In this document: in pieces, positions 29,029 to 32,677 of the stretch
Position numbering within the stretch: the first letter of the stretch is position 1
How the letters are laid out: every line of letters begins with the position of its first letter
From: an uncultured Chitinophagales bacterium
GTDB lineage: Bacteria; Bacteroidota; Bacteroidia; Chitinophagales; JAHDHT01
Direction of reading: 5' to 3'
Assembly: GCA_938023075.1 (NCBI GenBank)
Contig: CALHDG010000256.1
Location: 1-36,020, forward strand
Length of the DNA stretch: 36,020 nucleotides
Made by a program: the position numbers and the translations under genes
Notes under the pieces: model-generated
Told to the model about the DNA's origin: nothing
Database searches by the model: none
Seen by the model: only the letters and a program-made list of their open reading frames with translations

Positions 29029-30225
29029 ATGCCACATTATCAGAAAGCGGGTAAAATACCTCATAAACGTCATATACAATTTAGGCAACCAAATGGAGCG
29101 TTGTATAAAGAGGAGCTATTTTCTACCGAAGGGTTTTCTAACATTTATTCTACTTTATATCATATACATCAGCCAACTGCTATTATAAATGTGGGTGAAC
29201 CATATTCTGTAGCTCCCAAGCCTGCTTTTAAAAAACATATGTTGCCTAGAAGTTTTAAAGGTTTTCAAGTGCAACCTCAAAGCGATTTTTTGGCTGCTCG
29301 TGTGCCGATGTTAATGAATAGCGATGTGCAAATTACCATTGCGGCTCCTCAGCACTCAATTACCGATTATTTCTATAAAAATGTAGATGCCGATGAAGTT
29401 TTATTTATTCATAAAGGCAGTGGTACTGTTAAAACAATGTATGGGCAAATTGATTTTGAATATGGAGATTATGTGGTAATTCCGAGAGGAACAATTTATC
29501 AAATTGACTTTAACGCAGAGGATAACCGTTTGTATATTATTGAATCTTTTAGTCCTGTTGTTTATCCTAAACGATATAGAAATGAATTGGGTCAATTGTT
29601 AGAGCATTCACCGTATTGTGAAAGAGATATAAAAGTACCTGCCGACTTACCTACATATGATGAAGAAGGAGAATTTAAGTTGTTAATAAAAAAAGAAAAT
29701 ATTATTTATCCTTATGTATATAAATATCATCCCTTCGATTTAATTGGTTGGGATGGATTTCATTACCCTTATGCATTAAGTATACATAATTTTGAACCCA
29801 TTACAGGAAGAATTCATCAACCACCTCCAGTGCATCAAACATTTGCTGCACGCGGGTTTGTTATTTGCTCTTTTTGTCCACGTAAATATGATTATCATCC
29901 ACAAAGTATTCCAGCTCCGTATGCACATAGCAACATTGATAGCGATGAAGTGATGTATTACGTAGATGGACAATTTATGAGCAAAGGTAAAGTTGATAGA
30001 GGTCAAATTAGTTTACATCCAGGTGGTATTCCTCACGGACCTACACCCGGAGCTGCTGAAAAGAGTATTGGAAAAGAAGGAACAGAAGAATTAGCGGTAA
30101 TGGTAGATACGTTTAAACCACTTTTAATTACTGAGGATGCTTTGCCATATGAAATGGCAGATTACCATTTAAGTTGGGTAAATAAAGAAAAAGATATACA
30201 CATTTCAGCTAACTTGTCTTCATAA
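29029..30225 (+). CDS. hmgA: Homogentisate 1,2-dioxygenase
   Basis: A 398-residue cupin dioxygenase that opens the ring of homogentisate to maleylacetoacetate in tyrosine and phenylalanine breakdown. The start MPHYQKAGKIPHKRHIQFR is typical of the bacterial enzyme. The iron ligands are expected in YAHSNIDSDEVMYYVDG (His and Glu) and HPGGIPHGPTPG (His). The preceding FAARGFVICSFCPRKYDYHP segment also fits the family. It stands alone: fumarylacetoacetase, maleylacetoacetate isomerase and 4-hydroxyphenylpyruvate dioxygenase are not in the window, so the pathway is encoded elsewhere. It has its own promoter and terminator. Confidence 0.95.
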   Translation: MPHYQKAGKIPHKRHIQFRQPNGALYKEELFSTEGFSNIYSTLYHIHQPTAIINVGEPYSVAPKPAFKKHMLPRSFKGFQVQPQSDFLAARVPMLMNSDVQITIAAPQHSITDYFYKNVDADEVLFIHKGSGTVKTMYGQIDFEYGDYVVIPRGTIYQIDFNAEDNRLYIIESFSPVVYPKRYRNELGQLLEHSPYCERDIKVPADLPTYDEEGEFKLLIKKENIIYPYVYKYHPFDLIGWDGFHYPYALSIHNFEPITGRIHQPPPVHQTFAARGFVICSFCPRKYDYHPQSIPAPYAHSNIDSDEVMYYVDGQFMSKGKVDRGQISLHPGGIPHGPTPGAAEKSIGKEGTEELAVMVDTFKPLLITEDALPYEMADYHLSWVNKEKDIHISANLSS

Positions 30226-30569: not shown

Positions 30570-31721
30570 ATGAAGGCAAGTTCATTTTACGTTGATTCTG
30601 TTTCGGAAATTAAATCAAAATTAGAGGAAATAAAATCTAACGATTTTAAGCCTAGTTTAGCAATCGTTTTTGCTTCTATAAAGCATAATTTGCAAGAAAT
30701 ATCAGCTCTTTTTTACAGTTTAAATATTGATTTAATTGGATGCAGTAGTTCTGGTGAAATTATAAATGAAACCATAACAGATGAAGGGATTAGTATTTTG
30801 GCTTTAGATATGAATAAGAATTACTATAAAATAGTGCATCAAGAAATTGAAGACGAAAAAAATTACTCTAAACTCAAATTGTTCGGTGAAAAAATTGTTG
30901 ACATTTATGAGAATCCTGCCGTAATTCTTTTTACCGGAGGAATTACCTTAGACGGGGTTAAAGTTGTAAACCAAATAAAAAATTCAAAAAAAACCGATTT
31001 TCCAATATATGGAGGTTTAGCAGGTGATGATCTTAAATATGAAAGCACTTTTTCGTTTACTAACAAATGGATGTCGAACAATGGTGCAGTAGCATTAGTT
31101 ATTAATGATGATAAAGTAAGGGTAAAAGGTAAGTGCGTAAGTGGTTGGGAAGGCATGGGAGTCACCCATCAAATTACCAAATCAAAAGGTAATATATTAT
31201 ATGAAATTGATCATAAACCCGCTTTGGAAGTCTATAAAAAATATTTTCATTTTCATACACATTTTAGAAAGGATGTATTAGAGAACAATGAAACATTTCA
31301 ATCTATATCGGGGCAATATCCTCTAATTATTAATAAGCCTGATGACTACACCATTATGCGTTCGCCGTTGGTGAGCGATTTTGAAAACAACACGATTGTT
31401 TTAGCGGGCAGTATTACAGAAGGAGAATATTTTCAATTCGGTATTGCTCCTGATTTTGAACTATTAGAAAAAACAACAGAAGAATTCAAGGGTCTTAAAA
31501 ATGAAATGCCTCAAATAGATGCTGCTTTACTAATTAATTGCAAAGGAAGACAAACTGCGTTAGGACCTGAAATTTCTGAAGAAATTGAAGCTATTCATGA
31601 TTTATGGCAAGCCCCAATTATTGGTTTTTTTAGTTATGGAGAAATTGGAAATGTGGATAATGGACCTTGTGAATTTCATAACGTTACCTGCACCTTGGCT
31701 ACATTAACCGAAGTTTATTGA
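30570..31721 (+). CDS. FIST domain sensor protein
   Basis: A 383-residue protein with the FIST_N and FIST_C architecture, a sensory module thought to bind small ligands such as amino acids. The N-terminal domain shows LAIVFASIKHN, LIGCSSSGEI and ILFTGGITLDG; the C-terminal part shows FQFGIAPDFELLEKT, AALLINCKGRQTALG and IIGFFSYGEIG, the typical FIST_C end with a GExG. No signal peptide or membrane segment, so it is cytoplasmic. Its stop overlaps the ATG of the histidine kinase (TGATG), so the two are translated together and it is likely the input subunit of that kinase. The ligand is unknown. Confidence 0.9.
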   Translation: MKASSFYVDSVSEIKSKLEEIKSNDFKPSLAIVFASIKHNLQEISALFYSLNIDLIGCSSSGEIINETITDEGISILALDMNKNYYKIVHQEIEDEKNYSKLKLFGEKIVDIYENPAVILFTGGITLDGVKVVNQIKNSKKTDFPIYGGLAGDDLKYESTFSFTNKWMSNNGAVALVINDDKVRVKGKCVSGWEGMGVTHQITKSKGNILYEIDHKPALEVYKKYFHFHTHFRKDVLENNETFQSISGQYPLIINKPDDYTIMRSPLVSDFENNTIVLAGSITEGEYFQFGIAPDFELLEKTTEEFKGLKNEMPQIDAALLINCKGRQTALGPEISEEIEAIHDLWQAPIIGFFSYGEIGNVDNGPCEFHNVTCTLATLTEVY

Positions 31722-32677
31722 TGTATAATATTGGTAAAATCGAAAATTTAATTAGCACTTTAAAAATTTCTGACAATGAAAAAGATGAAATTTTTGAAGA
31801 AATTAACTATCTCAAAAAAAAAATAGAAATCCTGCAGTTTAAACAAAAACGAATTCAACGAGATAAATATATTGTTACCAATGTACTTAATAGTACCATA
31901 GATGAGTTAGAAATTAATAAAATTATAGTTGAAAAACAGGTAATTGAGTTAGATAATAGTTACAAAGAATTAAAAACGGCATATGCCGAATTAGAAAAGT
32001 TTAGTTATATCGTTTCGCACGATTTAAAGAGCCCCCTAAGGAGTATTGCAGGTTTTACCCAATTGTTAGAGAGAAATCAGCTGATTCAATCAGATAAAAA
32101 TTCTAATAAATATATGAAGTATATTGTAACTGGAGTAAACCAAATGGCAGTTACAATTGATGATTTACTTACTTATGCCAAAGTAACGAATGAGTCGCAT
32201 AATGTTCAACTCTCCTTGGTTGATTTTAATGAGGTTATAGAGAAAGTGAAAATGCTGCTGAAGAACATGATTGAGCTAGAAAATGTGACAATAGAAGTAT
32301 TAGATGTTTTACCCGTTATTTTTGCCGCAGAATCTGCTATATTACAATTGTTTCAAAACTTAATAGGTAATGCTATTAAATTTAAAAAAGATGAGCCGCC
32401 AATAATAAAAATAATGGCGCAAGAAACCTTACCGAATATATGGGAGTTTATTGTTACGGATAATGGAAAGGGAATGAACAACGAGTTTCAAAAAAATGCC
32501 TTTAAAGCTTTTGAACGGGAAAAAAATCATGATGTACCCGGCACCGGTTTAGGCTTGGCAATTTGTAAAAAAGTAGTAACAATGCATCAAGGAGATATCC
32601 ATTTAGTTTCAAAATTAGGTAAGGGAACTGCTTTTACTTTTACAATTAATTCAGCAAAAGTTAAGTCTGCATTATAG
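31721..32677 (+). CDS. Soluble sensor histidine kinase
   Basis: A 318-residue kinase without membrane segments. Residues 1-95 are a long predicted coiled coil rich in Glu, Lys and Ile. The dimerisation/phosphoacceptor domain contains FSYIVSHDLKSPLRSIAGF with His at about residue 100. The ATP-binding domain has the N box NLIGNAIKFKK, G1 VTDNGKGM, F box FKAFERE and G2 GTGLGLAICKKVV. I start at the ATG overlapping the FIST stop; the frame could extend to a TTG one codon earlier. It has no sensory domain of its own, which fits dependence on the FIST protein. No response regulator gene is adjacent, so the phosphate acceptor is elsewhere. Confidence 0.92.
   Translation: MYNIGKIENLISTLKISDNEKDEIFEEINYLKKKIEILQFKQKRIQRDKYIVTNVLNSTIDELEINKIIVEKQVIELDNSYKELKTAYAELEKFSYIVSHDLKSPLRSIAGFTQLLERNQLIQSDKNSNKYMKYIVTGVNQMAVTIDDLLTYAKVTNESHNVQLSLVDFNEVIEKVKMLLKNMIELENVTIEVLDVLPVIFAAESAILQLFQNLIGNAIKFKKDEPPIIKIMAQETLPNIWEFIVTDNGKGMNNEFQKNAFKAFEREKNHDVPGTGLGLAICKKVVTMHQGDIHLVSKLGKGTAFTFTINSAKVKSAL

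Follow-up and report, generated by a model that had tools for sequence, protein, structure and literature searches.

The stretch of DNA analysed here (the window: 36,020 nucleotides, contig CALHDG010000256.1, from an uncultured Chitinophagales bacterium) carries a FIST gene and a histidine kinase gene, one directly behind the other, with the following features:

30570-31721, forward strand: FIST sensor protein with FIST_N and FIST_C and without an output domain (Pfam, AF2, PDB fold match)
31719-31723, forward strand: TGATG, in which the FIST stop and the kinase start share one base (sequence)
31721-32677, forward strand: soluble HisKA/HATPase_c histidine kinase, 318 aa (Pfam, invariant residues)
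31721-31912, forward strand: A1 segment, a FIST-partner segment formed by the first ~64 residues of the kinase, proposed as signalling helix and docking site for FIST (alignment, genome scans, leave-family-out, out-of-sample adjacency, helices 4-13 and 18-118)
31991-32191, forward strand: HisKA dimerisation/phosphoacceptor domain, residues 91-157 (Pfam)
32330-32650, forward strand: HATPase_c catalytic domain, residues 204-310 (Pfam)

The first gene encodes a 383-aa protein matching FIST (residues 30-216, E 1.5e-33) and FIST_C (218-361, E 6.4e-24) with no third domain in Pfam, which bears out the initial annotation of a FIST protein lacking an output domain; both halves score well above their family cut-offs (PF08495, 116.7 vs. 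23.2 bits; PF10442, 85 vs. 28.5 bits), and the gene is present in a single copy in this genome. The AF2 model of this protein is confident (pLDDT 93.3, pTM 0.92), its best fold match in the PDB is FBXO22 (8ua3, E 8.4e-9), and four FBXO22 chains are its only matches at E <= 0.001, so that the fold assignment is sound while no particular ligand is suggested. Upstream (29029-30225) lies a gene for an HgmA-like cupin protein, with a clear HgmA_N match and an HgmA_C match below cut-off.

The kinase reading frame runs from an ATG at 31721 to a stop at 32677, with nothing above the Pfam cut-offs beyond HisKA and HATPase_c. This is an orthodox HisKA kinase, having a phosphoacceptor histidine and an HATPase_c domain with N and G boxes, and residues His100, Asn217, Asp247, Gly249 and Gly251 are invariant across 16 aligned kinases. 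The FIST stop (TGA, 31719-31721) and the kinase start (ATG, 31721-31723) overlap by one base, exactly as initially annotated, and an alternative TTG start at 31718 proposed by the ORF caller would give an overlap of 4. Promoter and terminator scans yielded no more matches than in shuffled sequence, and zero Rfam families matched. The AF2 model of the kinase, built from 16 sequences only (pTM 0.64), predicts a helix at residues 4-13 followed by one uninterrupted helix (18-118) running through the A1 segment to His100, an arrangement that, as far as a model from few sequences goes, would fit a signalling-helix mechanism.

By protein search, 15 of the 59 relatives have a FIST homologue at E <= 0.001, and 82 of the 395 class genomes have one at E <= 1e-25. 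Gene calling on the DNA around the listed class matches and most of the relatives' matches (the four weakest relatives' rows came without wide flanks) gave 97 FIST loci, window included (G, C and L numbers below are our handles for genomes, contigs and loci). In 92 of the 97, the gene downstream is on the same strand and no more than 150 nt away, and a gene bearing one of two N-terminal segments, A1 or A2, lies immediately downstream in 89, with 47 of these at -4 to +5 nt; given these counts, the tight spacing is not a matter of chance. This is the gene-neighbourhood survey for which the initial annotation had called, and it shows the FIST-partner adjacency to be conserved. That annotation had also held that a conserved separate sensor for the kinase in relatives would speak against a joint receptor; none was seen, although two A-lineage relatives (L056, L059), out of nine that have a partner, carry a PAS domain between segment and HisKA.

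The exceptions are eight loci without a segment-bearing gene directly downstream (L058, L066, L083, L117, L148-L151): the FIST gene of L058 and L083 lies at a contig end on its downstream side, that of L066 is broken across frames with an A1 kinase farther downstream, and in L148-L150 an unrelated gene follows. The 89 partners divide, by our own profiles, into 47 HisKA, 16 hybrid and 5 HisKA_2 kinases, 20 SpoIIE-type phosphatases and 1 unassigned protein, and Pfam confirmed SpoIIE, HisKA and HisKA_2 examples among 20 proteins from FIST loci. The SpoIIE-type (PP2C-like) partners, 20 of 89, bear the A2 segment (L067, L079, L081, L084-L087, L120, L127, L137, L141 and others), and FIST may feed phosphatase-based signalling besides phosphorelay. 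Elsewhere, two or three diverged FIST genes stand in tandem before one A1 kinase or phosphatase (L062-L065, L303-L306, L308-L310), with very long kinases (1116-1667 aa) on the flanks of several; these arrays may be multi-input receptors.

The first ~65 residues of the partners form two families, A1 occurring with the FIST lineage of the window and A2 with its sister lineage. The A1 alignment holds 10 sequences, that of the window included, with F40, R44, K49, L56 and L63 invariant, and the A2 alignment holds 63, with Q10 invariant. No homology between the two was detectable (hhalign probability 7%); we therefore dropped a joint family and kept them as two, with no common mode of docking implied. 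The initial annotation had credited the kinase with no sensory domain except a coiled coil: the lack of a sensor domain stands by Pfam, and what was called a coiled coil is this conserved, FIST-associated segment. Searched one by one against Pfam, the 63 A2 rows gave only scattered matches (at most 4 rows per family), the A1 region had no match above cut-off when the whole kinase was searched, and neither segment had a convincing match in a PDB sequence search. Nor did we find such a segment described in the titles and abstracts of open-access literature on FIST, NosP, SpoIIE and kinases.

Both profiles were trained on survey genomes, and the held-out tests are the leave-family-out runs and the phylum scan given below only. 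With each taxonomic family left out, A1 recovered 10 of 10 partners (worst E 5.1e-5), including the window kinase directly behind its FIST gene (E 5.9e-11 with its own family left out), and A2 recovered 79 of 79. Among the 636 other locus genes, A2 matched one, the second SpoIIE of a FIST operon (L067_5), while in every fold A1 matched L066_3 best, a kinase that had been entered among the negatives but is FIST-adjacent too. The window kinase is the sole A1 match in its own genome (next E 0.7).

Across the 395 genomes of the class, 8 have an A1 match at E <= 1e-11, and in all 8 a FIST gene lies immediately upstream; the training set included 7 of them, the one outside it being G417 (E 2.5e-12). 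The other 10 A1 rows, at E 1.7e-4 to 0.009, appear to be noise. A2 gave 91 matches in 81 genomes. For 69 of these matches, the gene immediately upstream is a FIST match of the class survey (E <= 1e-25), and 4 more stand behind FIST genes that the survey missed or that a contig end cuts (G261, G283, G356:C8, G080). The remaining 18 have no known FIST neighbour, among them G071:C44 and G114:C1:1753722, for which no DNA was fetched, and the match of G354, at a contig start. By genome, A2 is present in 72 of 75 with an A2-type FIST vs. 9 of 320 others (3 of the 9 have a FIST), counts that ignore relatedness; three genomes have FIST without A2 (G103, G336, G364), and six, G354 among them, have A2 without any FIST by PF08495. 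Proteins with A2 that are not FIST-adjacent were seen at L221, L223, L224, L227, L229-L234, L236-L240 and L300-L302.

With cut-offs of E <= 1e-3 for A1 and E <= 1e-5 for A2, a phylum scan of 316 genomes, some of them also in the class set, found A1 in 8 new genomes (G487, G510, G524, G547, G582, G641, G649, G659), directly behind FIST in all 8. Six of these A1 proteins are kinases and two are SpoIIE-type phosphatases; Pfam confirmed both phosphatases and two of the kinases. A2 was found in 28 new genomes, with FIST directly upstream in 26 (exceptions G549 and G651), and G687 has a second, unlinked A2 match. Over 66 residues, the N-terminus of a kinase (G151) shares 65% identity with that of a SpoIIE phosphatase (G659), and the window segment aligns to that of G659 with a z of 7.6 over shuffles. 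A2 is likewise exchanged between kinases and SpoIIE phosphatases in the sister FIST lineage.

In a tree of 103 FISTs (a quick search, supported by SH-aLRT alone), the window falls within a set of 18 with SH-aLRT 100, whose partners all bear A1 except that of L058, at its contig end. Over this tree, segment type requires 1 change and output class 9. In the genomes G001 and G379, where both FIST lineages are present, each FIST is paired with the segment type of its lineage. We lean slightly towards reading A1 and A2 as transferable, lineage-specific FIST-docking plugs, through which one FIST type would drive interchangeable enzymes in trans (histidine kinases, hybrid kinases, HisKA_2 kinases and SpoIIE-type phosphatases) with mutually exclusive specificity, allowing two systems per cell. 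Co-inheritance within an operon could, however, make FIST and segment lineages match without physical contact.

Outside the phylum, FIST matches occur in 22 plasmid records; a further search was started from the FIST of Azospirillum, and 8 neighbourhoods were read in all. A kinase follows FIST on plasmids of Azospirillum, Nostoc, Calothrix, Microvirga (where it is annotated as an ATP-binding protein) and Sinorhizobium, and the Azospirillum partner carries A2 (E 9e-10). On an Aliiroseovarius plasmid, the gene directly behind FIST encodes a guanylate/adenylate cyclase of 278 aa whose N-terminus is helix-like (L249:5061-5897), and the Legionella anisa FIST has no same-strand partner. The A1 profile was tried on the Nostoc and Aliiroseovarius partners and gave no match; their N-termini resemble each other weakly (E 0.015). 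In Sulfurovum mangrovi, FIST, HisKA and HATPase are naturally fused in one 664-aa chain (L250:3644-5635) that neither the A1 nor the A2 profile matches, which is what would be expected, in this one case, of a segment that docks in trans.

These results bear on a rival account, which takes the segment for a dimerising coiled coil of the ordinary kind, retained by gene co-travel, and has FIST act elsewhere on the kinase or on a different protein. The segment is predicted to be fully helical and A2 occurs in proteins without a FIST neighbour, as such an account would have it, but three findings make it improbable: the sequence is strongly conserved between taxonomic families and between outputs that are unrelated, A1 lies behind FIST in 8 of 8 cases outside the training class, and a natural fusion does without the segment.

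We consider it quite probable, from sequence and structural models, that FIST and kinase form a two-gene, two-protein cytoplasmic receptor, the split receptor of the initial annotation. This reading is favoured because adjacency is conserved, the segment tracks the FIST lineage and a natural fusion exists, and because NosP, in the distant NosP-NosK pair, is reported to bind the kinase NosK and to inhibit its autophosphorylation (excerpts of PMC12570481). The FIST protein would be the ligand-binding half and would dock on A1, the first ~64 residues of its partner kinase; ligand binding would then shift the kinase helix (18-118) and change the balance of autokinase and phosphatase activities, and the phosphoryl group would pass to a regulator encoded elsewhere.

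As to the ligand, one rival holds that the window FIST is a divergent NosP that binds heme, senses NO (or heme) and controls its kinase as NosP does NosK/NahK. The gene order and the domain-poor type of kinase are common to both, FIST-heme/NO biochemistry is on record (excerpts of PMC12570481 and PMC8846402), and the NosP model is the sole NCBIfam match of the protein. That match, at 58.9 bits, is nonetheless far under the NosP equivalog cut-off of 450 (NF041558), and membership was rejected; all 10 other FIST proteins tested also fall below it (24-95 bits), so the score reflects distance rather than ligand. With zero invariant histidines in the 18-row alignment of window-lineage FISTs, we regard a divergent NosP as rather unlikely.

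Sensing of small molecules such as amino acids or metabolites was the original proposal for FIST domains. That the window FIST senses such a molecule seems to us a tentative possibility, in line with a fold search in which FBXO22 chains, and no heme protein, reached E <= 0.001, and with the description of FIST as a possible small-ligand domain (excerpt of PMC4398556). Against it, the genes nearby (HgmA-like, PALP-family cysteine synthase-like, hexapeptide transferase) are not part of the FIST-kinase pair.

The target regulator, as first annotated, is not encoded nearby: among the 27 called genes of the window, searched with our own kinase, receiver and FIST profiles, FIST and the kinase alone matched. 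Such an absence is ordinary, since 29 of the 69 kinase-type partners (counting the one unassigned partner) have no receiver in the same directon. Receiver domains match 30 times in the genome at E <= 0.001, and 28 of these matches also pass the Pfam cut-off. Of the 20 among these 30 that were compared with the regulators encoded beside the kinase in A-lineage relatives (L059, L066), the receivers at G000:C36:76241 and C54:6483 are the most similar, and each of the two adjoins a different kinase (the kinase and single-receiver pairs at L252:2122-4679 and L253:2175-3879). These single-receiver regulators are candidate trans targets by cross-talk only, and we predict from sequence that the kinase would cross-phosphorylate one of them.

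To our knowledge, how FIST proteins communicate with their partners is poorly understood. A conserved segment shared by kinases and phosphatases names a probable contact site and predicts partners from sequence; it would also explain kinases that seem to lack a sensor, and could serve as a plug for building or rewiring receptors. A FIST protein with a sensor-less kinase is already known (excerpts of PMC12570481, PMC8846402, PMC11237717 and PMC4398556), so what is new here is the lineage-specific, output-independent partner segment as the probable contact.

The window pair is closest in layout to the NosP-NosK/NahK(-NosR/NarR) NO systems, where a stand-alone FIST protein likewise sits beside a sensor-less kinase, and this direct adjacency is conserved in relatives of the window. 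In NosP systems FIST controls autophosphorylation in trans (both points from excerpts of PMC12570481 and PMC8846402). The FIST protein of the window differs in scoring 58.9 of 450 bits on the NosP model, and no regulator was found in the window. In VpsV-VpsS of Vibrio cholerae, too, a FIST gene lies upstream of a cytoplasmic kinase as its proposed sensing partner (excerpt of PMC4398556), but VpsS is a hybrid kinase feeding LuxU/LuxO and the window kinase lacks a receiver. Membership in the H-NOX/HnoK type was set aside, there being 0 PF07700 (HNOB) matches in the genome. HnoX (H-NOX)-HnoK nevertheless resembles the proposed pair in that a separate cytoplasmic sensor controls a kinase in trans (excerpt of PMC8846402), the sensor there being an HNOB domain and that of the window FIST.
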